DNA from: a virus
Reading direction: 5' to 3' (one strand)
Virus record (IMG/VR): IMGVR_UViG_3300032092_000064
Coordinates: 1 to 45,274 of that record
Length of the DNA: 45,274 bases
The notes beneath the pieces were generated by a model. It did not search any database, was not told where the DNA came from, and was given only the letters and a program-made list of their open reading frames with translations. This document shows positions 1,165 to 42,131 of this stretch, piece after piece. A program made the translations under genes and the position numbers. Numbering within the stretch: position 1 is the first letter of the stretch; each line of letters begins with the position of its first letter.

Positions 1165-1962
1165 TTAGTTTTCGGATTTATTCAGAACCCACTTAGGGCA
1201 TGAAAGGGTTTGTGTCGCTGTTGGATAGGCTGGCCAACTGTCCAGTGCGCGGCATTCGTGCAGCGTCGAGATTGCCTTCCTACGAAGGTTCTCACCAGCC
1301 TGAAGCCATTCGGCATCCAGTTTGTAAATTGCGACGGCGTATGGCGCTTTGCGTTCAACGGCCACGAAGACGAAGCTATGCGCTTCGGTCATTGCCATGT
1401 AATGAGCCGCCTGAATGTGGTAACCGAATGATCCGACCGTACGGCTGAAACCTTCAGGCGTTGCGTCGTCGGTGGTCTTTACGTCCACCAAGATCGCAGG
1501 CTCAAGAACCCACAGATCGGGACGTGCTTTAAGAGCAATGCCGGTTTCCTCGTCCTGAGCGAACACGCTCGCTTCGATCCTATGGGGCAGATGAATGATG
1601 TCCCAAAACGGATGACGACGGACACTGTTGGCCACGCCTTGCACATCGATGTCTTCAGCGTGAGTCAGATGGATGCGCGACTTGTGCGCTTCCTTCCACG
1701 CTTTGCCATCTTTCGTGCGTCCATCGATGTCCGGCGGAATAACGGCGACGACTTGCGAGTAGAGTTGTGGTTCAAGGACAGCAGTGTGAATCGCCGTACC
1801 CATCTGCATGCTCTTCGTAGGCTCCTGACGCTCCTCCAGCGCGGCTTTGTAATGCGCCGGGGACTTGAGGATCTTGGACATCATCGACTTAGAGAGAGCG
1901 TCAACGGCGTGATACTTCTCCGCCGGCATGTCGAGGTTGACGTGTTGATTGAGAATGCTCAT
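1165..1962 (-). CDS. RecE-like PD-(D/E)XK exonuclease
   Basis: 265 residues. The motifs follow the RecB/RecE nuclease order: MGTAIH (His59), RPDLW (Asp149), LVDVKTT (Asp160 and Lys162, the D-x-K pair), and YHIQAAHY (Gln184 and Tyr188, the QxxxY motif). Such enzymes resect duplex ends 5' to 3' and leave 3' overhangs for a RecT-type annealase. Its ATG overlaps the recT-like stop codon (ATGA), so the two are translationally coupled. The length matches an isolated RecE C-terminal nuclease domain. I am confident of the fold and active site; the polarity of resection is inferred from the family. Confidence 0.88.
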   Translation of the reverse strand: MSILNQHVNLDMPAEKYHAVDALSKSMMSKILKSPAHYKAALEERQEPTKSMQMGTAIHTAVLEPQLYSQVVAVIPPDIDGRTKDGKAWKEAHKSRIHLTHAEDIDVQGVANSVRRHPFWDIIHLPHRIEASVFAQDEETGIALKARPDLWVLEPAILVDVKTTDDATPEGFSRTVGSFGYHIQAAHYMAMTEAHSFVFVAVERKAPYAVAIYKLDAEWLQAGENLRRKAISTLHECRALDSWPAYPTATQTLSCPKWVLNKSEN

Positions 1963-2780
1963 TCAGTGGGAGGGTTAGCGAACGTCTTAGCCTTAGAGAT
2001 GAAGCTGTCAGGATCGGCGACGATCATGTTGGCCACCTTCGTGGATACATCGCGGAAGTTTTGCTCAGCCTTGATCAAGTTCTTGCTGACGAGGAACGCA
2101 TTGGCGATATCAGAATGTGGCTCAAGAATCTGCTCTAACTTCTCAACGAGCGAGAAGGCCGGTTCCGGTGTCACATTGACCGTCTGGCGCGTCGTAGCGG
2201 TGATGGTGGGTGTTGGTGAGGTAGCAAAATCAGCAGCCTCCTCCGGGGTATAGACGCCAGCAACAACTTCAGGTGCGAGCATTCGAATAGCCTTGGAGAT
2301 GCAGCGAGCGCGGAGCATAGCTGCCGGATCTTTCTGCCATCCAGAACCAGCCTTCGCGGGAAGCAGTCCTGCGATTTTGGCGTCTTCGGTCGTAAATCCG
2401 ATTTCGCATTCGTTGCCGTCGAATTTCCAGACTCCGATAGCAGCAGTCGAATCGAACTGCTTCCAGATTACCTTGCCGCCCCGAGTCCGATATCCGGCGA
2501 GCATCGCGTCTGAGCGCATCGTCAACGAGCCGTTGACCAGATGAAACTCTCGCTTGAAGTCGAACGGAGTTTTACGAGTGGCTAGGCATTCAAGGGCGAT
2601 CATGTTGCCCTGCTCGTCCTTCTGACAGTTGAAGACTCCGCTTCGCGCAATCCACGATCCGAGTTCCTTGACCGCTTCAAGCGATGTTCCGATGCGGGAG
2701 TAGAACTCGCCGCTGTCATGTTGTGTGGCCACTGCCTGAGTTGGCGTTGGCGCTACTACCGTTAGTGTTTGGTTGCTCAT
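1959..2780 (-). CDS. RecT-family single-strand annealing protein
   Basis: 273 residues from the ATG at 2780, which has a purine-rich AAAAGAGAA upstream; a longer frame from 2813 lacks that. Family-typical segments are GSGWQKDP (about residues 145-152) followed by MLRARCISKAIRMLAP and GVYTPEEA (about 155-180), the signature block of phage RecT-like annealases. They coat ssDNA and pair complementary strands during replication-linked recombination. The N-terminal 20 residues are low-complexity and rich in Thr, Pro and Val. It is coupled by ATGA overlap to the RecE-like gene. Residues about 186-206 form a Thr/Pro linker before a C-terminal helical domain. Confidence 0.85.
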   Translation of the reverse strand: MSNQTLTVVAPTPTQAVATQHDSGEFYSRIGTSLEAVKELGSWIARSGVFNCQKDEQGNMIALECLATRKTPFDFKREFHLVNGSLTMRSDAMLAGYRTRGGKVIWKQFDSTAAIGVWKFDGNECEIGFTTEDAKIAGLLPAKAGSGWQKDPAAMLRARCISKAIRMLAPEVVAGVYTPEEAADFATSPTPTITATTRQTVNVTPEPAFSLVEKLEQILEPHSDIANAFLVSKNLIKAEQNFRDVSTKVANMIVADPDSFISKAKTFANPPTE

Positions 2781-2836
2781 GTTGTATTCTCTTTTTTTGT
2801 TTCTTGGACACATCCACCAGATTGAGGCGGATAAAA

Positions 2837-3343
2837 TTATTTGGGTAAATCGGGATACTTGTGGTGCAAATTATCATGGCAGCGATTGCACAAAAATATG
2901 ACATTGAACCATTGTGATTTTTCGTAACTGTCGTGATGCGCCTCGGGTTTGCATTCAATTCCACACCGCGAGCAATGGTTGGGCCTTTCCATTTTGCCGG
3001 TTCTGATTGCGTTGCAAACCGCCAGCCTCGCACGTTGGCGATCTGGATTTTTCTCGATGGAACGCTTCTTTGCTATCGCGTTTCCTGCTAGGTGCTTAGC
3101 GTACTTTATAGGATCAGCCTTGATTTCGATGTAGGTATTTCGGCTGTAGATTCTGCCATAAGCAGCCATTCGAGGTAAAATTTTGATTCTATTCTCTGCG
3201 TGATATGCTGCTTGGCAGACCTTGCATCTCCACTGTCTTTGGTCTGATGATTTTCTATCTAATGCAAACAAATCAACCGCCTTCTCTTCAAGGCACTTGT
3301 TGCACCGCTTAGTCGCTTGAACCTGTTCAACCTCGATGTTCAT
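2837..3343 (-). CDS. HNH-type zinc protein (putative endonuclease)
   Basis: 168 residues. There are two zinc-knuckle-like regions. The N-terminus has CNKCLEEK and CKVC (about residues 15-42). The C-terminus has CSRCGIEC, then HH, an Asn in WFNVIFLC, and CNRCHDNLHH. The His-Asn-His arrangement between two Cys pairs is the HNH nuclease signature. The start is well supported: AGGAGG lies 8 nt before the ATG, and that ATG overlaps the stop of the HTH gene. HNH proteins in phages are homing nucleases or packaging nickases; this one lies far from the terminase, so a free-standing or regulatory role is equally possible. Confidence 0.75.
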   Translation of the reverse strand: MNIEVEQVQATKRCNKCLEEKAVDLFALDRKSSDQRQWRCKVCQAAYHAENRIKILPRMAAYGRIYSRNTYIEIKADPIKYAKHLAGNAIAKKRSIEKNPDRQRARLAVCNAIRTGKMERPNHCSRCGIECKPEAHHDSYEKSQWFNVIFLCNRCHDNLHHKYPDLPK

Positions 3344-5631: not shown

Positions 5632-5984
5632 TTCTTTGCTGTTGTTTGACTGGTTTCGAGAGAGGAAAGTTTTCGCATGACGCGACGGCCATAGGCGCGG
5701 GAGGATGAACGCTTGATGGCTCGTGGCCCACCCTGCCAGATGCGTGCGAGCGATTCATCGGAGAGGTGTTTGCCGTAGTGGCTTAAATATGCGTGTGCAA
5801 TGAAGAGCGCGACGGCGCGGTTGGTGACTTGGGCGTGCGCGTAGGATGTCCCCATGATGCGGTTCACGTCGCGTACAAGAATCGGCTTGATCTGGAGCGC
5901 GCCAAGCTCGCCGTGACGGCCACGGGCAAGATCATTTCCGTGGGATTCGATCTGAATCAGGGCCGAAAGAAGCAATGGATGCAT
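5628..5984 (-). CDS. lytic transglycosylase (SLT-like, endolysin candidate)
   Basis: 118 residues. LLSALIQIESHGND (catalytic Glu13) followed by GALQIKP (about residues 28-34) is the SLT/goose-lysozyme-like signature: a catalytic glutamate, then the G-x-x-Q-I-x-P motif. Such enzymes cleave the MurNAc-GlcNAc bond of peptidoglycan with 1,6-anhydro formation. There is no signal peptide, so it would need a holin or carriage in the virion. The size fits a minimal phage SLT domain. It lies in the early leftward operon, far from the holin-like genes at 15266-15657, which is unusual for an endolysin. No other muralytic gene is recognised in the window. Confidence 0.82.
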   Translation of the reverse strand: MHPLLLSALIQIESHGNDLARGRHGELGALQIKPILVRDVNRIMGTSYAHAQVTNRAVALFIAHAYLSHYGKHLSDESLARIWQGGPRAIKRSSSRAYGRRVMRKLSSLETSQTTAKK

Positions 5985-6852: not shown

Positions 6853-7446
6853 TCAGGCAATCGTCTTGATCCACTCAAGATATTCTCGCGCTTCGGCTTC
6901 ACCTTGACGGTAACCGCCAAGTTCCAAGCGGTCAGATTCTCCGGTTGATTGGCAATAATTGTACCAACGCTCGCGAGCTTCGGACCATTGGATTTCCAAT
7001 TCATGGCTCACGATGCGCGCAAAGGCGGTGAAGAAGTCCTGTCGAACGGATTCAACCGCATCGCCCATGTCGATAGCGCGGAGAAGATCCGCATCCATGC
7101 GGGATAAGGTCATGCGCGGGAGCAGGATTTCGACCGCAAAGTCGCGAGCGTCCGTCCAGACGGAGCTGTAAGCGTTTGTGCTAAGCCACAGGGAGCCGTC
7201 CTGAAATAGGTGGTAAACGGAATCGTCACCGCCAGTGCCGGCGCGGAAGGAGTCTGCAATATCGTCGGCGAATGGGGGCAGTTCCTCGATGAGGTCTTGC
7301 TCCTCGGGAGTGAAACTATCGTCCATGCGGTAAAGATGACGCACATAGGCGCGGGCGGACAACGGGAGCCGGCGCGCTTCGAAAGACGACAGGACCGTAT
7401 CGCGAGCGATTAGCTTTTCGAGGATGGGGATTAGCTTTGGATTCAT
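6853..7446 (-). CDS. hypothetical acidic protein
   Basis: 197 residues, ATG start. It is largely helical and acidic, with several aromatic clusters (SVYHLFQDGSLWLSTNAYSSVW in the middle; EIQWSEARERWYNY late) and no recognised domain, transmembrane segment or signal peptide. It is the first gene downstream of hairpin copy A. Its start has no Shine-Dalgarno site. The function is unknown; length and codon pattern support a real gene. Confidence 0.7.
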   Translation of the reverse strand: MNPKLIPILEKLIARDTVLSSFEARRLPLSARAYVRHLYRMDDSFTPEEQDLIEELPPFADDIADSFRAGTGGDDSVYHLFQDGSLWLSTNAYSSVWTDARDFAVEILLPRMTLSRMDADLLRAIDMGDAVESVRQDFFTAFARIVSHELEIQWSEARERWYNYCQSTGESDRLELGGYRQGEAEAREYLEWIKTIA

Positions 7447-7480
7447 AATTCGGAGTTAATTTGGTAAACCAGGACTTTGA

Positions 7481-7524
7481 TTTACCGCTACTGCCCACCG
7501 TTTCCGATAGACAGGCGCGGGAAA
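7481..7524 (-). promoter_or_regulatory. intercistronic GNRA hairpin, copy A
   Basis: In the transcribed (minus) strand the order is: TTTCCCGC pairs with GCGGTAAA (one C/U mismatch); an internal loop GC opposite TA; CTGTCTA pairs with TGGGCAG (two G-U pairs); then TCG/CGG around a GAAA tetraloop. The G-U pairs and GNRA loop exist only in the minus-strand RNA. It lies 16 nt after the stop of the 61-residue gene and 34 nt before the next start. Confidence 0.8.
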
Positions 7525-7540
7525 TAAAAATTTCCTGGGG

Positions 7541-7726
7541 TTAAATTTTACTGTCGATTTCTTCGATGGAAACGAATTCCCATTGAGCAATGTCCTTCAG
7601 CGCAATGCGTGCGTGGATAAGAGGAGCGCAAAATGCCTCCTGAGCTTCCGGCTTCGCGTCGAATGCGGACACAAGGGATTGCAGGGTGCGGATAAGGTTT
7701 TCCGTCGCTGATTCGGGATATTTCAT
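7541..7726 (-). CDS. hypothetical small protein
   Basis: 61 residues, ATG start with the leader ATCCAATG and no Shine-Dalgarno site. Mostly helical and amphipathic (ENLIRTLQSLVSAFDAKPEAQ, then IHARIALKDIAQ), with no recognised family. It is flanked on both sides by hairpin copies (B upstream, A downstream). That makes it one of the single-gene units of this region. Confidence 0.6.
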   Translation of the reverse strand: MKYPESATENLIRTLQSLVSAFDAKPEAQEAFCAPLIHARIALKDIAQWEFVSIEEIDSKI

Positions 7727-7761
7727 TGGATGCTTTCGTTGGTTCGAGGAAGGACTTGTGG

Positions 7762-7806
7762 CCTACCCTGTCGCGTCACCGTTTCCGATGGCGCGCTTAG
7801 GATAGG
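7762..7806 (-). promoter_or_regulatory. intercistronic GNRA hairpin, copy B
   Basis: Minus strand: CCTATCCT pairs with AGGGTAGG (one U-G); the internal loop is AAG opposite AC; CGCGCCA pairs with TGACGCG (one C/A mismatch); then TCG/CGG closes a GAAA tetraloop. The stem sequence is unrelated to copies A, C and D while the loop is the same, so pairing rather than sequence is kept. Located 4 nt after the upstream stop. Confidence 0.75.
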
Positions 7807-7810
7807 TCAT

Positions 7811-8014
7811 TCAGTCGAGACTTGACCAGAGTGCGGAGCCGCGAAGGCCGCTGTAGTGGACTTCGTAGCGCGGCGGATTCGGGACGCCAACCTCGCGCCA
7901 CAGGTCGAGTTGCTGGCGCGCATAGGCGACGGCGTCCGATTCGGACTTTGACCAGTGGACTAGCTGAGGTTTTGAGCCGCTAGAAAGCGCGGTTTGCATG
8001 ACGTAATAATTCAT
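7811..8014 (-). CDS. hypothetical small protein
   Basis: 67 residues from the ATG at 8014 (the frame to 8095 would overlap the upstream gene deeply). The leader is GCATCCATG with no Shine-Dalgarno site. The pattern (MNYYVMQTAL, HWSKSESDAVAYARQQLDLW, RYEVHYSG) suggests a beta-alpha-beta fold typical of small phage proteins. The helix (DAVAYARQQLDLWREV) is amphipathic. No function recognised. Confidence 0.7.
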   Translation of the reverse strand: MNYYVMQTALSSGSKPQLVHWSKSESDAVAYARQQLDLWREVGVPNPPRYEVHYSGLRGSALWSSLD

Positions 8015-8031
8015 GGATGCGCGGGGATAAA

Positions 8032-8349
8032 TTAAAATTGTTGGATGACCAGTCCGCCGTCGAATTCGACCACTTGCGTCCGGTTCTGAAGCCATTCAAG
8101 CGCGGCTTCCTCAGTGTCGTTTTCCTTTCCACTGGAACCGTAGTCGTGCGCGGCTTTGAGCGCGGAGGGATATTCCGCCCATTCGCAGCAAATCCCTACA
8201 GGATCGAGCGTGATTTCAGTGTCCGTCCATTGTTCGATATTTTCGAAGTGGTCGAATAAGGCGCGGCGTGCGGGGACGGTGAATTGACTTTCGCGTCCGC
8301 ATAGGCGGAAGGAATCGACGAATTGGAATTCTGAAACGGTGGTTTTCAT
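8032..8349 (-). CDS. conserved phage hypothetical protein
   Basis: 105 residues from the ATG at 8349 (leader AAATCCAATG). The sequence FVDSFRLCGRESQFTVPARRALFDHFENIEQ, then ITLDPVGICCEWAEYPSALKAAHDYG, is a recognisable small phage protein family of unknown function. The C-terminal part (EEAALEWLQNRTQVVEFDGGLVIQQF) completes the usual length. Hairpin copy E lies in its 5' leader. Confidence 0.85.
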   Translation of the reverse strand: MKTTVSEFQFVDSFRLCGRESQFTVPARRALFDHFENIEQWTDTEITLDPVGICCEWAEYPSALKAAHDYGSSGKENDTEEAALEWLQNRTQVVEFDGGLVIQQF

Positions 8350-8377
8350 TGGATTTATTGAATCGGGAATCGGGAAT

Positions 8378-8425
8378 GATTCACCGCCGGAGGCTACCCT
8401 TGCGGATAGACTCTCGCGGGGAGTC
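8378..8425 (-). promoter_or_regulatory. intercistronic GNRA hairpin, copy E
   Basis: Minus strand: it begins at the stop codon of the upstream gene (TGACTCC). The outer stem has the same C/U mismatch followed by CCGC/GCGG, with one A/C. The inner stem AGTCTA/TAGCCT has one mismatch, then TCC/GGG closes a GCAA tetraloop. The closing G-C pair of the other copies is swapped to C-G here, a compensatory change. It is the most degenerate copy. Confidence 0.65.
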
Positions 8426-8792
8426 AAAGCGAGCCGTTCGATTCGGCAATGTCGCCCCATGAAGCGATTCTATAGTGTCCGTTCATTCGGACAATTGTGG
8501 GCGCATAAGTGTCCCCCGTGTTCAGGTATTCGACCCAAGTTCCGTTTCGAGTCTGAAAGGCTTCTATGCCGAAAGTTTCCAGTAATGCGTCAAGGCAATG
8601 AAGGCGCACGTCTGAAGTAGTCGGCGCATGATAGCACTCACGCACTCGCTCATTTCCAGCGGGGAGCAATTCAAGTTCGGATCGGCCCATTCGGAATATT
8701 GCCTTGGCCGCTTTACCTTTGCCGGGGAAAGCCGATTCAATGGACTTAATGGACGGGGAGCGGAAGCGGGGAGCGGATTTGGTTATGGTCAT
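8424..8792 (-). CDS. conserved phage hypothetical protein
   Basis: 122 residues, ATG with the leader CAAATCCCATG. The C-terminal half (LETFGIEAFQT, WVEYLNTGDTYAPTIVRMNG, YRIASWGDIAE) is a compact domain that I recognise from many phage genomes without a known function. The N-terminus is basic (KSAPRFRSPSIKS), which may be a flexible arm. It lies between hairpin copies C and E. Confidence 0.82.
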   Translation of the reverse strand: MTITKSAPRFRSPSIKSIESAFPGKGKAAKAIFRMGRSELELLPAGNERVRECYHAPTTSDVRLHCLDALLETFGIEAFQTRNGTWVEYLNTGDTYAPTIVRMNGHYRIASWGDIAESNGSL

Positions 8793-8825
8793 GGGATTTG
8801 ATTTGATTTGGATTTGATCGGCTTT

Positions 8826-8873
8826 AATTCGCCGCTATTCCCTACCGTCGCCGATAGGGAAGCGCGGGGAATC
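8826..8873 (-). promoter_or_regulatory. intercistronic GNRA hairpin, copy C
   Basis: Minus strand: it starts in the TGA of the upstream gene. ATTC/GAAT, one C/C mismatch, CCGC/GCGG, internal loop GC opposite TA (identical to copy A), a perfect 7-bp TTCCCTA/TAGGGAA, then TCG/CGG closing a GCGA tetraloop. This is the clearest copy. Confidence 0.85.
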
Positions 8874-9207
8874 AGAGCCGGTTCAGGATTGATTGAATTG
8901 ATCGGCCCAGTTCAGCGCGGATTTGATCGTCAAATTGATTTGCTTTGGCGCGGATTTGATCGGCTTCTTTGCGTGCGGAGGCAATGATTCGATCAGATTC
9001 GGCTTTGGCTTCGGAGAGCATTTCGCGGCATCGAGCGGAGCAATCTTTGATCGAAGCGGAAGCATAAATTCCCGGATGGAAGTCGCTGCGGATATCGCAT
9101 TCGATGAAAGGGATTTGCTCGCGGAGCCAATCCCCGCAGTACGAACCGGAGCCTAATTTATCTGCGGCATCACTGAGGATTTGGATTTCTTCGGATTTGG
9201 ATAACAT
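8872..9207 (-). CDS. hypothetical protein with long helical C-terminus
   Basis: 111 residues from the ATG at 9207 (leader AAATCCCATG). A GTG at 9258 would add an Asn-Pro repeat coded by the AAATCC array, but it lies inside hairpin D, so I prefer 9207. The first 60 residues hold four Cys (YCGDW, IECDI, KDCSARC). The remainder is a continuous charged helix (AKAESDRIIASARKEADQIRAKANQFDDQIRAEL), probably a coiled coil. No recognised function. Confidence 0.72.
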   Translation of the reverse strand: MLSKSEEIQILSDAADKLGSGSYCGDWLREQIPFIECDIRSDFHPGIYASASIKDCSARCREMLSEAKAESDRIIASARKEADQIRAKANQFDDQIRAELGRSIQSILNRL

Positions 9208-9240
9208 GGGATTTGGATTTGGATTTGGATTTGGATTTGA
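9208..9240 (-). repeat. AAATCC hexamer array in a gene leader
   Basis: Five consecutive AAATCC units on the minus strand directly precede the ATG at 9207. Shorter forms of the same motif (AAATCCCATG, AAATCCAATG) precede the ATGs at 9655, 8792 and 8349. If translated in the long frame it would give Asn-Pro repeats. It is adjacent to hairpin D. Confidence 0.7.
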
Positions 9241-9288
9241 ATACTGATTGCTGCCCACCGATTGCCGATGGGCAGGGTATCAGGATTC
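9239..9288 (-). promoter_or_regulatory. intercistronic GNRA hairpin, copy D
   Basis: Minus strand: it begins in the TGA of the upstream gene. GAAT/ATTC, one C/U mismatch, CTGAT/ATCAG, internal loop ACC opposite CA, a perfect 7-bp CTGCCCA/TGGGCAG, then TCG/CGG around GCAAT, a GNRA-like tip with one inserted base. Confidence 0.8.
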
Positions 9289-9666: not shown

Positions 9667-9771
9667 TTAGAATTGGGATTTAAAGAAGACGAAGAAAAAC
9701 GACCAGCCTGCGATAGCGTAGGCCGTGGCCACGAAGAGGATGGAAGCGAGTTTTTTAAACGTGGGTTTCAT
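9667..9771 (-). CDS. 34-residue single-pass membrane peptide
   Basis: ATG at 9769-9771, stop at 9667. The peptide has a basic N-terminus (MKPTFKKL), a hydrophobic segment of about 22 residues (LASILFVATAYAIAGWSFFFVFF) and a short polar tail. This predicts an inner-membrane peptide with N-in orientation by the positive-inside rule. It is the first gene of the leftward operon, about 11 nt after the candidate -10. Early phage membrane peptides are often superinfection or defence factors, but nothing here shows which. Confidence 0.6.
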   Translation of the reverse strand: MKPTFKKLASILFVATAYAIAGWSFFFVFFKSQF

Positions 9772-9782
9772 TTGACGTGGAC

Positions 9783-9811
9783 AGACTAGGCGACGGGGCG
9801 GAAGGAGTCAA
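9783..9811 (-). promoter_or_regulatory. candidate leftward early promoter
   Basis: Minus strand TTGACT (9811-9806), a 17-nt spacer, then TAGTCT (9788-9783). The ATG at 9771 would follow with a very short leader. The -35 and spacing match the candidate at 3660-3688; the -10 is poor. Confidence 0.35.
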
Positions 9812-17772: not shown

Positions 17773-18048
17773 TTAGTATTGTTTTTCAAATGTTGCTTCA
17801 GGTTCTCTCGTTGTGTCGGTTACTGCAAGTTTTCGAATGTTTTCGAGGCAATGAGCATATCCAGCAGTCACGCCAGCAGCGAAAACAATGTCCGATTCCT
17901 TGCTTCCTTGGGATGGCATAGGCACCGGCATCGACTCAGCCACGATGCGTAAAGCCATCCGAAGAATCGGATTTCGCAAAATAAGCGCAAGTTCGGCCTG
18001 TTGGCCAGCCGTTGTCCATTCGAGAATGTCTACTTCAGGCAAGTCCAT
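17773..18048 (-). CDS. hypothetical small protein
   Basis: 91 residues from the ATG at 18048, which overlaps the preceding gene by 14 nt; an ATG at 18063 is a second option with AAGGAG immediately in front. Mainly helical, with TAGQQAELALILRNPILRMALRIVAES and GVTAGYAHCLENIRKLA. No recognised motif. It sits between the glycan cassette and the scaffold, and resembles small virion-assembly proteins in position only. Confidence 0.65.
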   Translation of the reverse strand: MDLPEVDILEWTTAGQQAELALILRNPILRMALRIVAESMPVPMPSQGSKESDIVFAAGVTAGYAHCLENIRKLAVTDTTREPEATFEKQY

Positions 18049-19387
18049 CAGGCTTTTCGCCATCTCCTTGCGGTTCTTCGTCGAGCCTCTTAGCCAGTTC
18101 ATCATACTTTGATTTTTTGTTTCGTTGTAGTTTGTGTCTCTGCGGAATTGGATCGAGAACATCGTCTAGTTTGATCGGGTTCTCTTTGTTGACGACGTCG
18201 CGCTTGGGTCGAATCACCTTCGTCACCTCAAGCAAGTCGGCCAACGGAATCTTGATGTAACCGCAGTCCACATCGTTGATTCCGTACGAGACGACAAACT
18301 TATTCTTTGCGGTATCGAAGAATGCGCCGCACGGGAATACGACCGCAGGCAATCCCGGCCACCAATCCTGCTGATTCGTTCCAGTCAGAAGCGGCAGCGT
18401 CGTCATTCGAGCGATGCGGAAAGGAGGCTTTGCTTCGAAAGCGTAGGCACCCATGTAGTAGCGGCGCTTTTTGTTGATCCACGGCAGCGAGCTATGGAAG
18501 AAGGTCCAGTACAAGCCGTCGCAAAGGATCGGATTGGAGCCTCCGCGCACCTCGCCAAACTTCCAGAGCGGATTGAACTCGTCGGTGACGTATTCCTCCT
18601 CCTTCTCTAAACGCCCATTAAGGCGCACAACGACGTGAGGATTGGCCGAATACACCATGTGTGGCGCATTATCGTGGACGAAGTAGAGCCAGTTCTTCTC
18701 ATGGCCATCGTTGATCATGGCCTGCGCGTAGTTGTTGCCGTAGATCATGTCTAAGCGCCCTACGTTCAGGAAATGCTTGTCCAGAAGGAACATCCCTTGG
18801 TGCGCGTAGCTCTTGAACGGAACGAATGTGGCGCAACTCACGCCGTACTTGTCGCCGAATTTGACGACGCGAGGATCTTCGAACTGTTCGAGGGGGTAAT
18901 GGGAGATTAACTGGAGCAGCGACTTCTTTGTGGCGCGAAGATCCTGACTCAGCTCGAACACGACGATGTCGTTCTTCTCGATGTAGACATCCTCGTCCTT
19001 CTCGCGCTTGTTACGGCAGCGACGGGTAAAAAGCATGATTCGACCGTCCGGTTCGAGCATGATTGCCGGGTTGAAGTAGTACGTCCCCGTTTCCTGCGGC
19101 AGAACGATTTTGCCAGTCTCCCAATCGGTTTGTTCACTCAGCTTGGGGACGTCATTTTTTGCGTAGCTCATTAGAAACTCGGCAGCGAATTTGATTTCAT
19201 CGTAGAGAGCGAGCCAATGATCGCGCTCCTCGCGGACCTCGGTCAGATGCTCGTCATGTTCTTTGGTTCGAATCTCAAGCGTTTTGCGAAGGTCTTCGAT
19301 TTCCTGAAGAAGATCCGCAGGACCATCGCCGCCGTTTGCAAATCGCTTGAGAGCCTTGAGGGACAGACTTCGGATTATGTCTTTCAT
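18035..19387 (-). CDS. GH130-like glycoside phosphorylase / glycan-binding propeller
   Basis: 450 residues. Residues about 20-70 are a coiled coil. From about 100 the sequence follows a five-bladed propeller: FNPAIMLEPDGRIMLF, then QFEDPRVVKFGDKYGVSCA (Glu170-Asp171-Pro-Arg, the EDPR motif of GH130), PHMVYSANPHVV, GGSNPILCDGLYWTFFH, and GLPAVVFPCGAFFD. GH130 enzymes phosphorolyse or hydrolyse beta-mannosides. The last 60 residues are basic and disordered. It is coupled by ATGA to the upstream methyltransferase. Whether it is active is not decidable from sequence, and the N-terminal coil suggests it might be a virion-bound depolymerase. Confidence 0.75.
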   Translation of the reverse strand: MKDIIRSLSLKALKRFANGGDGPADLLQEIEDLRKTLEIRTKEHDEHLTEVREERDHWLALYDEIKFAAEFLMSYAKNDVPKLSEQTDWETGKIVLPQETGTYYFNPAIMLEPDGRIMLFTRRCRNKREKDEDVYIEKNDIVVFELSQDLRATKKSLLQLISHYPLEQFEDPRVVKFGDKYGVSCATFVPFKSYAHQGMFLLDKHFLNVGRLDMIYGNNYAQAMINDGHEKNWLYFVHDNAPHMVYSANPHVVVRLNGRLEKEEEYVTDEFNPLWKFGEVRGGSNPILCDGLYWTFFHSSLPWINKKRRYYMGAYAFEAKPPFRIARMTTLPLLTGTNQQDWWPGLPAVVFPCGAFFDTAKNKFVVSYGINDVDCGYIKIPLADLLEVTKVIRPKRDVVNKENPIKLDDVLDPIPQRHKLQRNKKSKYDELAKRLDEEPQGDGEKPDGLA

Positions 19388-20010
19388 TGTTTTCGCACAA
19401 ATACCCGTGTTTTTCCGCCTTCCAGATACGTTGAATGCTCGTATTTTTTAAGCGCAATCTCTTGAACAAGCTTCATGGTTTCCCAATTCGCGTCATCCAT
19501 GATGAACAGTCCTCCAACCTTAATCTTTGGAGTCCACGCAATCAAGTCTCGCGTTGAATCCCATTCGGTGTGCGCCCCGTCCAAGTGGAAAATGTCGATG
19601 CTTTCGTCAGCGAAATCAAAAGAAGCGTCCCAAGACGTTTTTCGAATGGTGGTCAAATTCTCGTCTAGCCCAAGAACCTTGAAGTCGCGAACAAATTGAT
19701 TGTAGATCAGATCGAGCTGATCCTGCCCTTCGGTGAGGTGGACACTGTACCCATTTTCGCTCATCGCGCATTTGCTCCACGGGTCAATTGCGAACACTTT
19801 GCATTTGTGAATGAGTGATGCCGCGCAGAAGCTGGCTACGCTTAAGCCTCTCCAAACACCAACCTCAACAACGACGCTAGGCTTCGATTGAAGAACAATG
19901 TCGAACATGTATCGACTCTTCTCTTCAAACGTCCACCCCGGAACAAAGCTCCTAGCCTTGATTACTTTTTCCCAAGCTTCGTTATCCGTGAATTGTACTT
20001 GGTTGTCCAT
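19384..20010 (-). CDS. class I SAM-dependent methyltransferase (Methyltransf_24-like)
   Basis: 208 residues. VVVEVGVWRGLSVASF (46-61) is motif I of a Rossmann methyltransferase. FAIDPW (73-78) is the acidic ribose-binding loop. IFHLDGAHTEWDSTRD (141-155) and GGLFIMDD (166-173) match Methyltransf_24 or cephalosporin-hydroxylase-like enzymes, which methylate hydroxyls of sugars or small molecules, often with a metal. The neighbouring glycosyltransferases make a sugar O-methylation likely. It overlaps the GT25 gene by 29 nt and the GH130-like gene by 4. Confidence 0.78.
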   Translation of the reverse strand: MDNQVQFTDNEAWEKVIKARSFVPGWTFEEKSRYMFDIVLQSKPSVVVEVGVWRGLSVASFCAASLIHKCKVFAIDPWSKCAMSENGYSVHLTEGQDQLDLIYNQFVRDFKVLGLDENLTTIRKTSWDASFDFADESIDIFHLDGAHTEWDSTRDLIAWTPKIKVGGLFIMDDANWETMKLVQEIALKKYEHSTYLEGGKTRVFVRKQ

Positions 20011-20614
20011 TTTGTGTTGCGAGTGGTGGTACTAATGAATAGTGACTAATGGTCGGAAGCGTTCTCTTTTTGAGCTGAATGTCTATCGGAGCGTACATCA
20101 GTTCATTTGTTTCTATGAGATGCTTTACCGCAGTTTTTCGAACCATGTATGCGTGAGTACACATCGGTGGGTTCGGTGTGTGAGCTACTCCTTCGCGGAC
20201 CATAAGCATCTTTGGATCAAGGCAACAATGGCCTACAAAAACAAACTGCCAATCGCTCGGCAAATTTTGAATCTTTGCCATCAGCTTCTCTTTAAAACCT
20301 TCGCAAAGCTCAACGTCATCCTCGACGACCAAAAAATAATCGTCATCCAGATACTCCATGATCCTCCAAATCGTATAATGCGACATGGAACATCCAAGAA
20401 CGCTTTGAGAGATTCGATATGTCGGGCCATCTTCAGGAATCCAGTTCGGATGGTCATCAAGGTATGACAGCTTTGTATCCAAACCCATCCTTGGAGCGTG
20501 GATTGCATCGAATAGATGAAAATCAATTCCATGACTCTTTAGGTGATTGAATACAACTTCCCTTCTTTTAGCTGCGGATTTAAGTGAAACGCAAAATGTT
20601 CTTGGAAATTTCAT
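19982..20614 (-). CDS. GT25-family glycosyltransferase
   Basis: 210 residues. TFCVSLKSAAKRREVVFNHL (about 6-25), SVLGCSMSHYTIW (71-83) and FLVVEDDVELCEGF (94-107) are the three hallmarks of GT25, the LPS or galactosyl transferase family. The EDD acidic motif would bind the metal and nucleotide sugar. It has no signal or membrane helix, so it is cytoplasmic. Coupled by ATGA to the methyltransferase upstream. Likely adds a hexose to a glycan or to virion protein; the acceptor is unknown. Confidence 0.85.
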   Translation of the reverse strand: MKFPRTFCVSLKSAAKRREVVFNHLKSHGIDFHLFDAIHAPRMGLDTKLSYLDDHPNWIPEDGPTYRISQSVLGCSMSHYTIWRIMEYLDDDYFLVVEDDVELCEGFKEKLMAKIQNLPSDWQFVFVGHCCLDPKMLMVREGVAHTPNPPMCTHAYMVRKTAVKHLIETNELMYAPIDIQLKKRTLPTISHYSLVPPLATQNGQPSTIHG

Positions 20615-21180
20615 TTTATGTTAGTTATTAAAATTGCAGATTTGATTGATTCTCCTATTTTAAACATTCTCAAGAGCTTGGAGTTGGGCCAAAACAACAC
20701 GTTAATCGGTCTGTGTTGACCTGCTTCAATGTCTAAGTTCTTTTCGCAATGATCGTTGACGACAAGTACATATTTGTTTTTTGAAGCATATCCTAATATT
20801 TTATCGCATTCAATTAAAGGGAGATGCTGAAGAACATCTTTGATGTGAACAAAATCAAACGATTCGTTTATTTCGTTTATCTGTTGATTTGATATTTCCG
20901 TTCCTTCTGGAGCCTTTGATTTCGCAGCTATAACCGCATTCTTGCTGACATCAATACCTTTGTATCTAATTCCAGTAAAATCAATTCGCGCTCCTAGTTG
21001 CCAATCTCCGCATCCAACATCTAAAAATGATTTTACATTTAACGAGCGCAACAGATCGTTTAAATAAGAAACATACTCAGTTGTGTTTGCTATGTTTGAA
21101 CCGGGTCCAGAGCCTCCCTTCCATCTATCTTCCCTGTAGATATCATCAAAGATATTTTGAAGCGTGTTCGCAGTAGACAT
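20611..21180 (-). CDS. class I SAM-dependent methyltransferase
   Basis: 189 residues. SFLDVGCGDWQLG (51-63) is motif I, GIDVSK (75-80) motif II, and FVHIKDVLQHLPL (110-122) the motif IV region typical of small-molecule and sugar methyltransferases. It is visibly richer in A and T than its neighbours, suggesting separate acquisition. It overlaps the GT32-like gene by 35 nt. The substrate is unknown; the context suggests a glycan. Confidence 0.82.
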   Translation of the reverse strand: MSTANTLQNIFDDIYREDRWKGGSGPGSNIANTTEYVSYLNDLLRSLNVKSFLDVGCGDWQLGARIDFTGIRYKGIDVSKNAVIAAKSKAPEGTEISNQQINEINESFDFVHIKDVLQHLPLIECDKILGYASKNKYVLVVNDHCEKNLDIEAGQHRPINVLFWPNSKLLRMFKIGESIKSAILITNIK

Positions 21181-21874
21181 TTTCTTTTTTATTTATAATT
21201 TCTTCAGTTAAAGAGTTCATCCTAGGCGTGTGGTATGACCTCCACAAATGAGCAATCACGCATCCATCTAGTGAATAGTTGGGTTTCCAGTATTTGCCAG
21301 ATTCGCAGTGAATGAATCCAAGCATTTCGAAATCAACCGCTTTACAAAGCCCCGGATTTTCCTGATGCAGCTTCCACGGATATTGAACCGAAAACTCGTT
21401 CCATCCGGTGCCGTCAAACTTTTGCCATTCTTGAAGCCATTTCCACTGAAACTGTCCGTGCATCCTGCTGTACATGACAGCGTTGCACAGGCCAATGGTG
21501 CCTTCTCCGCAGAACTCGCGCCCTAAAACAGCGTCATGCTCAAGCCATTCCCTTGGAAACGGAGCGAGAGTAATCGTGTCGGTGTCAGCGTACACGCCGC
21601 CCATCGCGTATAAAACAGCATGGCGAATCAGGTCAGCGCGATGTTGATAATTGTGAACAACCTTCCCGTTCCACGTCTTGAAATTGTCAACCAACATCAC
21701 GCGAACCGGAACCTTCGCTTTCAACTTATCCCACTGCTCGCCGGTAGGTTCCTGAGGACACCAAAGAAAAACGCTCCAGTCAGGATTGTTCATCCAAGCT
21801 GAAGCGATTGCGATTCTGTCGCAAATATTGAAGCCGTCGTTATGAAGACCGTGAACGAAATGTATGTTTTTCAT
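21146..21874 (-). CDS. GT32-like glycosyltransferase (DXD sugar-binding)
   Basis: 242 residues. HRADLIRHAVLYAMGGVYADTDT (about 78-100) is the signature of Gly_transf_sug / GT32 enzymes: Arg84 for the nucleotide and Asp97-x-Asp99 for the metal. FGLCNAVMYSRMHG-like residues (GLCNAVMYSR) follow. The family adds mannose, galactose or related sugars. There is no signal peptide. It is the first gene after the portal, coupled by ATGA, so it is translated with a structural gene. Confidence 0.85.
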   Translation of the reverse strand: MKNIHFVHGLHNDGFNICDRIAIASAWMNNPDWSVFLWCPQEPTGEQWDKLKAKVPVRVMLVDNFKTWNGKVVHNYQHRADLIRHAVLYAMGGVYADTDTITLAPFPREWLEHDAVLGREFCGEGTIGLCNAVMYSRMHGQFQWKWLQEWQKFDGTGWNEFSVQYPWKLHQENPGLCKAVDFEMLGFIHCESGKYWKPNYSLDGCVIAHLWRSYHTPRMNSLTEEIINKKENVYCEHASKYL

Positions 21875-24120: not shown

Positions 24121-24734
24121 GGTCGTTTTTTCCAGCAGTGAGCCGGAAGGTTTTCGTTCTCTGTAGCGTCCGAGAATTTATGGAGGGTTTCAATGGGAAA
24201 CCAAACCATGCTTCTGATAAAGCAACCGCAAAACTCGCAGCTTTGCAGGCTTTCGTCCATCGGAGTACTGCCGTGTTGAGAGAAAGTTTTAACGGCATCC
24301 TTCAGCACACGGGCGTTGCATCCCGTGCATCCGAGTGGTTTTCGGTTGAATGAACAGGTTGAGCATATGCTTGCGCGCCGATTTGCTTCCGCTTGATCGA
24401 CCTTGCCACCGCCAACCGTAAGACCGTGGAGAAGGCTCATGCTGAACCGGATGACGTCGCCGATCTGAAGTGATTTACGACCTTCTGGCTTGGGAACATT
24501 GACTTCGTCGTAAGAGCAATCAGCACCGTTACGACACGCATATTCGGTGATTAATGTGTCAAGGTTGCTCGGGATTTGAATGGCGTTCGCCGTGTAGTGA
24601 TTGCGGACAAACTCATGGAGCTGCGCCCACGATCCTCCTGGCACTTCAATCCCAGTCTCGGGAATGCGGTAATGCCATCCGCCGGGGATGACCATGTGTT
24701 CGTTCAGAACTTTGTAACCAGTGGTTTTGCTCAT
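24105..24734 (-). CDS. Cys-rich zinc-ribbon protein between terminase and portal
   Basis: 209 residues. The N-terminal half carries HYRIPETGIEVPGGSWAQLHEFV, a compact motif. The C-terminal half has about ten Cys in CSTCSFN, LGCTGC, CEFCGCFI and AHCWKKRPC, suggesting one or two structural zinc sites. The position, between large terminase and portal and coupled to both by short overlaps, suggests packaging or head-neck assembly. I do not recognise a named family. Confidence 0.75.
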   Translation of the reverse strand: MSKTTGYKVLNEHMVIPGGWHYRIPETGIEVPGGSWAQLHEFVRNHYTANAIQIPSNLDTLITEYACRNGADCSYDEVNVPKPEGRKSLQIGDVIRFSMSLLHGLTVGGGKVDQAEANRRASICSTCSFNRKPLGCTGCNARVLKDAVKTFSQHGSTPMDESLQSCEFCGCFIRSMVWFPIETLHKFSDATENENLPAHCWKKRPCTET

Positions 24735-40953: not shown

Positions 40954-41543
40954 AGTAATTTTGGATTTTCAATAGACCGCTTGATTGATTCTCTCATGTG
41001 CGAATATTTCGCCAGTCCAGTTCCGTCGCATGAGTCCGCTCCGAGTTCCTCAAAGTATTCGTATCTGCCGGGAGTATTGATTCGTCCAATATGGCACCAC
41101 TTTCCAAGAATCTTAGACGCTTTGACAATCGCGGCAGCGTGACGGGAAATTTTCCACTCGGTTGATCCACCGATAAAGATCGCGTCGATTTCATCCCAAG
41201 GAATCGACAGATGCTCTTGCCCATCTTGGCAGACGAGCGCAATCGGCCAGCCGGTCAACTTTGGACTCCAACGCTGGAAACACTCCAGAGTTCTGATCGC
41301 AGAACCGACAACATCCGGTGCAGCTACAAATCGGCAGAGGTTTTTTCTGGGTTCATGCTTTTTGAGAGTCCGCATGAAAGCTTCAGCGTTGAACTTACTG
41401 AAGGCTCCGTTGTCGATTCCAAATCTACCATTGGGACGCTTTGGGTTCAGACCCGTAAGCGGAGTGAACAACTGCTCAACCTGAACTCCCAATTCGCTCT
41501 CGCACAAATCGAAGTCTGTGGATGTATCTAGCATCACGATCAT
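40950..41543 (-). CDS. DpdA/TGT-like 7-deazaguanine DNA transglycosylase
   Basis: 197 residues from the ATG at 41543 (ATGA overlap with queC). FGIDNGAF (about 41-48), VAAPDVVGSAIRTLECF (73-89), QDGQE (106-110), FIGGSTEWK (123-131), HIGRIN (151-156) and GADSCDGT (168-175) are the TIM-barrel motifs of the queuine tRNA-ribosyltransferase-like proteins in phages. DpdA proteins exchange guanine in DNA for a 7-deazaguanine base, such as preQ0. The two Asp (DNG and DSCD) would be catalytic. The link to queC next door supports DNA rather than tRNA. It is shorter than bacterial TGT, as phage forms often are. Confidence 0.78.
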   Translation of the reverse strand: MIVMLDTSTDFDLCESELGVQVEQLFTPLTGLNPKRPNGRFGIDNGAFSKFNAEAFMRTLKKHEPRKNLCRFVAAPDVVGSAIRTLECFQRWSPKLTGWPIALVCQDGQEHLSIPWDEIDAIFIGGSTEWKISRHAAAIVKASKILGKWCHIGRINTPGRYEYFEELGADSCDGTGLAKYSHMRESIKRSIENPKLL

Positions 41544-42100
41544 AAGCCGGAATCGTTGAGCTTCAAGCAAGCGGGACAGACTCCGCAGGGTTTCAATCCT
41601 CCGTTGTAGCAAGTCCAGATGTTTGAGCCGTTGATGCCCATGTCTCTGGCGATTCCGGCAATCTCCCATTTGCGCTTGTCGATGTACGGAGCGCATATTT
41701 CGACGCTGTAGCCGGATTCGTTGACTGTCTTTTGCATCGCTTCAATGAATCCTCGCCGACAGTCTGGGAATTGCTCTTCATCGTCCTTGTTACATCCAAT
41801 CGTCACGGTGTCAGATCCAGACTCGCAAGCGAAGTTAACGGCAACGCTTAGGAAGATGGCGTTGCGATTCGGGACAACCCACGATTGCTCGGTGAGTCCA
41901 CCAAGCGGAGGAAGATCTACAACAGTGAAGACTACTCCAGCAAGCTTTGCATGATACTTGGCGCACAGCAATTCTTGGCTGTGACGCTGCTTGTAATCGA
42001 ACATCAGCGCATGCAGTTGATGCCCCTGATTTAATAGGTCGTACATCATCGTTACGCTGTCGAGTCCGCCAGATAGGAGATGGATAATTTTTTTGTTCAT
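41540..42100 (-). CDS. queC: 7-cyano-7-deazaguanine (preQ0) synthase
   Basis: 186 residues from the ATG at 42100 (leader AAATCCCCACATG; an upstream ATG at 42115 adds five residues). SGGLDS (10-15) is the ATP-PPi loop. VPNRN (76-80) and FPDCR (111-115) are QueC signatures. Cys164, 172, 175 and 178 (GVCPACLK) bind zinc. QueC converts 7-carboxy-7-deazaguanine to preQ0, using ATP and ammonia. FolE, QueD and QueE are not seen in the window, so the substrate must come from the host. Shorter than bacterial QueC (about 220), as phage versions can be. Confidence 0.92.
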   Translation of the reverse strand: MNKKIIHLLSGGLDSVTMMYDLLNQGHQLHALMFDYKQRHSQELLCAKYHAKLAGVVFTVVDLPPLGGLTEQSWVVPNRNAIFLSVAVNFACESGSDTVTIGCNKDDEEQFPDCRRGFIEAMQKTVNESGYSVEICAPYIDKRKWEIAGIARDMGINGSNIWTCYNGGLKPCGVCPACLKLNDSGL

Positions 42101-42131
42101 GTGGGGATTTTTCATTCGCTCAATATTATTT

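Follow-up and report, generated by a model that had tools for sequence, protein, structure and literature searches.

The viral DNA of IMG/VR record IMGVR_UViG_3300032092_000064, positions 1 to 45,274 (hereafter the window, meaning this whole stretch of 45,274 nucleotides [nt]), carries a block of small genes on its minus strand, and in the gaps between these genes lie five RNA hairpins, A to E (Table 1), built to one plan. We find that they belong to a real, widely conserved and previously unrecorded RNA element that stands at the ends of small genes in one block and on one strand. In geometry, tip sequence and placement the element resembles the RNase III sites of phages T7 and T3, and we consider it probable that these phages, which are unrelated to T7, use the hairpins as signals for RNase III processing, much as T7 does in its early region.

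An earlier, sequence-only reading of this DNA had proposed five minus-strand hairpins at these places, and folding bears it out: measured against dinucleotide shuffles (200 per hairpin), the fold z-scores run from -3.1 to -5.4, and for each hairpin none of the 200 shuffles folded equally well. The 1x1 C·U or C·C mismatch that had been described in four copies is present in A, C, D and E, with a U·G pair at that position in B, and the first bases of C, D and E do lie inside the upstream stop codon. Other details required correction. What had been described as 7 bp followed by three closing pairs is one continuous stem of 10 pairs, with one mismatch in B and one in C; copy E, which had been called weaker, has a perfect 10-bp inner stem under a 5-nt tip; and the C-G closing pair attributed to E belongs to C.

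A covariance model of the five hairpins matched only these five in the window (54.5 to 70 bits, E ≤5e-14). The next matches were antisense copies of the same hairpins, which appear, at much lower scores, because the hairpins are palindromic; the remainder was noise. A second model, R2, covers the inner hairpin only (24 positions) and was built without T7 sequences. At gathering thresholds, Rfam release 15 matched nothing in the window; relaxing them added one miRNA-like match, a chance one outside the hairpins. An exact short pattern, which proved too strict, found nothing in the record itself, and matches to a 16-nt tip pattern allowing 3 mismatches were not above chance.

Conservation, geometry and placement of the hairpins

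Using the 197-amino acid (aa) protein encoded at 6853..7446 as bait, we recovered 50 relatives from IMG/VR (55-86% identity over full-length matches), and the five-hairpin model found well over 100 copies in those 50 relatives. A 36-nt DNA pattern matched 101 stretches of viral contigs, where an estimated 0.01 or so chance matches would be expected in the whole collection, and the model located further copies in 61 stretches from previously unmatched contigs. Taken together, the searches place copies in some 100 contigs of related viruses, almost always in the gap between two genes. Our own scan of 1.4 Mb yielded 361 copies and none in the reversed sequences; the 211 copies that were distinct and came with their context form the set for the geometry and placement counts given here. 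Homologous hairpins at equivalent places in relatives, on which the sequence-only reading had staked its proposal, are therefore present.

Copies with a 2x2 internal loop (alignment A4, 44 sequences) and with a 3x2 internal loop (alignment A5, 25 sequences) were aligned apart because MAFFT misplaced the tip columns of mixed classes; both alignments are gapless and blind to structure. Standard pairs fill 95.5% of cells in A4 and 94.4% in A5, against 32-51% and 39-45%, respectively, in slid controls. Double compensatory changes occur at 16 of the 18 pairs in A4 and at 13 of 18 in A5, and covariation scores of 0.62 (A4) and 0.74 (A5) compare with at most 0.16 when partners were slid. Because the aligned sequences are related, shuffle counts cannot be read as probabilities, but the margin is very wide. 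Covariation, the other point on which the proposal had been made to depend, is thus far above background in both alignments. The RNA nature of the element, argued earlier from G·U pairs and GNRA tips that exist on the transcribed strand only, is supported by these compensatory changes as well as by the strand-specific features themselves: the conserved object is the transcript, because a U·G wobble would be an A·C mismatch on the other DNA strand.

The geometry is equally regular. In free folds, each arm of the stem from tip to internal loop measures exactly 10 nt in 189 of the 211 copies, and the internal loop is 2x2 or 3x2 in 192; the lower helix has 4 or 5 bp in 157 copies and 8 bp in 26, and a 1x1 mismatch lies beyond it in 166. 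Median stability is -29.9 kcal/mol per 68 nt. All scanned copies but one have a GNRA tip, in a scan that itself favors GNRA; when 103 model hits were folded freely, the tip was GAAA or GCAA in 77, and most others were GNRA or GNRA-like. Pair 3 is U·G in 190/211 copies and pair 4 is A-U in 178/211. The conserved bases lie mostly in the tip and at pairs 3, 4 and 6, the remaining pairs drifting by compensation, and the 3’ strand of the internal loop reads CA, AC, AA, CG or UA across copies.

Both flanking genes were found in their expected places in 198 of the 211 contexts. The upstream gene ends within the tested range in 206, usually 10-11 nt before the inner stem; its stop codon usually lies in or at the outer stem, with a median of 10 nt from the end of the stop codon to the inner stem. 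Downstream, an ATG follows within 90 nt in 203 copies, at a median of 29 nt past the hairpin. The upstream gene family is a better predictor of hairpin class, with a conditional entropy of 0.37 bits, than the downstream family, with 0.74 bits (bootstrap interval for the difference, 0.23-0.47), and the hairpin therefore behaves as the 3’ end of the preceding gene.

The leader that follows the hairpin is G-poor (consensus AAATCCCATG), and none of 202 leaders contains a Shine-Dalgarno core. This lack is not special to the block: across the window the core was present at only 2 of 43 inspected starts, and the phage’s host therefore probably relies on Shine-Dalgarno-independent initiation. The leaders at window positions 9207-9240 and 8792-8827, and those in relatives, carry AAATCC/AAATC repeats and are nearly G-free before the start.

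When ten records were searched whole, every strong copy lay in one short block on one strand, and copies on both strands of one locus were never seen. Gene order is mosaic, with 82 distinct upstream-downstream family pairs in the 198 contexts. Some carrier contigs encode a terminase only about 23% identical to that of the window, which argues that the small genes, with their hairpins, are passed among phages whose structural genes differ; even in these contigs, small genes adjoining hairpins are up to 98% identical to those of the window. GTDB genome contigs contained no relative of the terminase or of the 197-aa protein (25-member profile), and in isolated-phage records terminase matches were distant or none.

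RNase III processing and its alternatives

Run unfiltered on the whole 40-kb T7 genome, R2 gave its best match at 5861-5884 (23.3 bits, E 2e-4), the upper stem of R1.1, a site that is cut at nt 5887 (PMC8708148). The second match, 3114-3135 (16.8 bits), is R1, and the next reaches only 11.2 bits. The first match in T3 is the annotated R1, with R0.5 and R1.1 ranking fourth and fifth, and R1 was repeated in the T3 relative phiYeO3-12; sites of the T7 group are related to one another and are not independent tests. When folded, the T7 and T3 sites follow the same plan as our family, an upper stem of 9-10 bp, a 2x3 internal loop and a lower stem: R1 has 9 bp, a 2x3 loop, 5 bp, a 1x1 mismatch and 4-5 bp, and T7 R1.1 has 10 bp under a GCAA tip. 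With 9-bp stems put in register from the internal-loop side, permuted pair orders equaled or exceeded the real one in 0.04% of cases for T7 R1, 0.5% for R1.1 and 2.6% for R0.3, which suggests a likeness beyond that of two hairpins as such. An A-U pair at position 7 and a U·G pair at position 8 from the internal loop are common to our family and T7 R0.3, R1 and R1.1, and R0.3 and R1.1 also have the GNRA tip. The sequence-only reading had missed this resemblance, which is close in geometry, tip sequence and placement.

Several observations weigh against processing by RNase III. The internal-loop sequence differs (CUCA.../UUUAUG in T7; GC/UA, GC/CA, ACG/AC and others in our family), and we accordingly liken the hairpins to T7 sites in their working and do not class them as homologous. 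R1.3 and R4.7 of T7 and T3, and R0.3 of T3, do not match the model; the annotated sites of phage gh-1 neither fold into this shape nor match it. The GNRA tip and the U·G pair are also conserved more tightly than generic RNase III substrates need. Finally, lambda (NC_001416) failed as a negative control: R2 matched it at 24372-24395 on the minus strand with 22.3 bits, as strongly as R1.1, although lambda has no annotated site there. By themselves, then, the T7 E-values do not decide the matter, and the argument rests on the top two T7 matches being known sites and on the shared architecture. Situated in the ea31-ea47 gap, the lambda hairpin has a T7 R1.1-like tip, GGUCAUUGGCAACAGUGGC; it may be an unannotated RNase III site or a chance match.

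If the hairpins are RNase III signals, host RNA polymerase would transcribe the small-gene block as one polycistronic RNA. In the gaps the transcript folds into about two helical turns of imperfect double-stranded RNA: below a GNRA tip come 10 pair positions and the internal loop, then a helix of 4-5 bp (8 bp in class B), usually a mismatch, and further stem. The host enzyme would cut within the internal loop, on its 3’ strand (predicted positions in Table 1), and so divide the RNA into single-gene messages. The upstream mRNA would be left ending in a stable hairpin that may protect it from 3’ exonucleases, and a 3’ end should go with the gene before it, as hairpin class does. At the start of the downstream mRNA there would be a short leader, poor in G, with about 40 nt between cut and ATG and presumably open for Shine-Dalgarno-independent initiation. 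The earlier suggestion had been a role in processing, stability or translation; processing coupled to 3’-end stability is the best supported of these, with host RNase III as the putative enzyme.

The same features can be read otherwise. A phage or host protein other than RNase III might read the GNRA tip and the fixed U·G and A-U pairs, exactly ten pairs from the internal loop, with its action gated by the terminating ribosome: as the stop codon is part of the outer stem, a ribosome that finishes translation has to open the lower stem. A new RNA punctuation system of this sort would give every small gene a translation-sensitive 3’ end and make hairpin plus gene an exchangeable unit; we think this unlikely. 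Alternatively, the hairpin may stay uncut and simply stop 3’-to-5’ exonucleases, at ends that a different nuclease, or Rho-dependent termination followed by trimming, has produced. The very stable stems, their position directly behind the stop codon and a class that travels with the upstream gene all suit such a stabilizer, but none of three conserved features, the internal loop exactly 10 pairs from the tip, the GNRA tip and the fixed U·G, is needed to block an exonuclease, and we rate the stabilizer as rather improbable. Conservation focused on the tip and pairs 3, 4 and 6, while other pairs drift by compensation, is what might be expected of a binding site for a phage or host RNA-binding protein that reads the tip and the U·G and A-U pairs, serving as a translational operator or in antitermination (as nut boxB or put). 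We doubt this slightly more: the hairpin is repeated behind most block genes and does not stand once near a promoter, it follows the upstream gene and not the leader to be controlled, T7 R1 and R1.1, both RNase III sites, share these tip pairs, and no candidate binding protein was recognized in the genes scanned.

Two further readings fare far worse. GC-rich stable stems at gene ends could be intrinsic terminators or attenuators between early genes, but a U tract (at least 5 T in the 8 nt after the hairpin) is present in none of the 211 copies, and a terminator scan listed none of hairpins A-E. We rejected intrinsic termination on the missing U tract, in line with the earlier statement that the hairpins, having no U run, are not simple terminators; the reading is largely refuted and very improbable. 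The repeats might also act as DNA, either as recombination boundaries for cassette shuffling, as the highly mosaic gene order and the divergent terminases of some carriers would allow, or as sites for DNA-binding proteins like the ESAS repeats of mycobacteriophages (see below). Arm sequences, however, differ wholly between copies while pairing is kept, and the U·G wobbles and GNRA tips are present only in the transcript. Shuffling through shared leader and hairpin sequence may occur but leaves the structure unexplained; covariation largely refutes a DNA site as the main function, and we regard it as highly improbable.

Should RNase III processing prove correct, processing of early polycistronic phage RNA behind most genes would extend beyond the T7 group, where it is best known, to a large set of uncultured mosaic phages whose structural genes are unrelated, as a result of either convergence or very ancient descent. 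The more than 200 distinct copies would then offer a large natural alignment of candidate substrates for RNase III, strict in spacing and with certain bases fixed, that makes the poorly understood substrate rules of this enzyme testable. Being conserved as RNA, the hairpin family could likewise mark the cassettes of early genes in viral metagenomes.

Genes of the hairpin block and elsewhere in the window

Within the window, 5 of the 8 gene junctions of the block have a hairpin. We take the block to be an early region because it is made up of small genes of unknown function with a promoter-like sequence ahead. The first frame of the block, downstream of TTGACT-17-TAGTCT, is a 34-aa membrane-like open reading frame (ORF) at 9667-9771 on the minus strand; no hairpin follows it.

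Table 1. Hairpins, genes and promoter-like sequence of the small-gene block (window positions; pairs and loops as in the minus-strand transcript)
Feature	Position	Strand	Evidence	Structure or setting	Internal-loop strand predicted to be cleaved
Hairpin A	7480..7525	-	fold z -4.25; R2 32.4 bits; alignment A4	outer stem AUUU/AAAU, C·U mismatch, CCGC/GCGG, 2x2 loop GC/UA; 10-bp inner stem 7491-7514; tip GAAA at 7504-7501	7490-7489
Hairpin B	7761..7807	-	fold z -5.41; R2 30.3 bits; alignment A5	8-bp lower stem CCUAUCCU/AGGGUAGG; 3x2 loop; inner stem 7772-7795, 10 positions, single C·A mismatch; tip GAAA	7771-7770
Hairpin C	8379..8424	-	fold z -3.14; R2 32.0 bits	CCGC/GCGG, 2x2 loop GA/CG; inner stem 8390-8413, single U·C mismatch; C-G closes GCAA tip	8389-8388
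Hairpin D	8827..8872	-	fold z -5.21 (wider stretch z -6.84); R2 30.1 bits	C·C mismatch, CCGC/GCGG, 2x2 loop GC/UA; perfect 10-bp inner stem 8838-8861; tip GCGA	8837-8836
Hairpin E	9240..9287	-	fold z -5.39; R2 26.8 bits	lower stem CUGAU/AUCAG (5 bp), C·U mismatch beneath, 3x2 loop ACC/CA; perfect 10-bp inner stem 9251-9275; tip GCAAU	9250-9249
Promoter-like TTGACT-17-TAGTCT	9783..9811	-	read by eye; second hexamer weak; not listed by promoter scanner (below threshold)	ahead of block	
Small gene, 122 aa	9287..9655	-	ORF; no family (no Pfam match); relatives with hairpins	hairpin E after	
Small gene, 111 aa	8872..9207	-	ORF; no Pfam match	between hairpins E and D	
Small gene, 122 aa	8424..8792	-	ORF; no Pfam match	between hairpins D and C	
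Small gene, 105 aa	8032..8349	-	from sequence; no Pfam match	after hairpin C; junction with next gene without hairpin	
Small gene, 67 aa	7811..8014	-	ORF; relatives up to 97% identical	hairpin B after; longer start possible at 8095	
Small gene, 61 aa	7541..7726	-	ORF; no Pfam match	between hairpins B and A	
197-aa gene	6853..7446	-	50 viral relatives	last gene of block, after hairpin A	

Outside the block, the minus strand of the window holds a run of sugar genes at 18035-21874 (a GH130-like mannoside phosphorylase, a glycosyltransferase of family 25 and a DXD sugar transferase), an unusual cargo for a 45-kb phage. A QueC-like queuosine/7-deazaguanine gene (41540-42115, minus strand) is possibly for DNA modification, and adjoining genes for a DUF3799 PDDEXK-type nuclease and a RecT-like protein (1165-2813, minus strand) are likely a recombination pair.

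Comparison with known systems

With the T7 and T3 sites the window family shares the presence of several sites per early operon between small genes, an irregular hairpin of about two turns (roughly one helical turn, 9-10 bp, from tip to internal loop and roughly one more in the lower stem), the lack of a U run and, in several cases, a beginning at the stop codon of the upstream gene. In T3, the annotated sites begin between -6 and +19 nt relative to the stop, and 20-50 nt separate the site from the ATG, in agreement with our placement. The internal loop is mostly 2x3 in T7 and T3, whereas ours is 2x2 or 3x2, and the window family is the stricter of the two in its 10-pair rule and GNRA tip. It is also confined to one block, while T7 has late sites too, and its leaders differ in having no Shine-Dalgarno motifs. 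No T7-like RNA polymerase was recognized in the proteins scanned, and the terminase has distant phage matches only.

The boxB element of lambda nut is a short stem with a pentaloop that forms a GNRA-like loop, present once or twice per operon near the promoter; boxB and put sites are recognized by N or by RNA polymerase. Like boxB and the put sites of HK022, our hairpins belong to early phage transcripts; compared by description only, they differ from boxB in their two-turn imperfect stem and in standing behind most genes.

ESAS, in cluster K mycobacteriophages, is a 17-bp inverted repeat beside a 13-bp start-associated sequence; differences between its arms generally do not support RNA pairing, and the authors favored a DNA-binding role (PMC3203893). 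Like ESAS, the window family comprises many inverted repeats that are placed between genes of the non-structural half alone, all pointing one way, and are kept while genes are exchanged. Unlike those of ESAS, the arms of the window family change together, with strong covariation, and whereas ESAS is a start-proximal motif, the hairpin described here follows the upstream gene.

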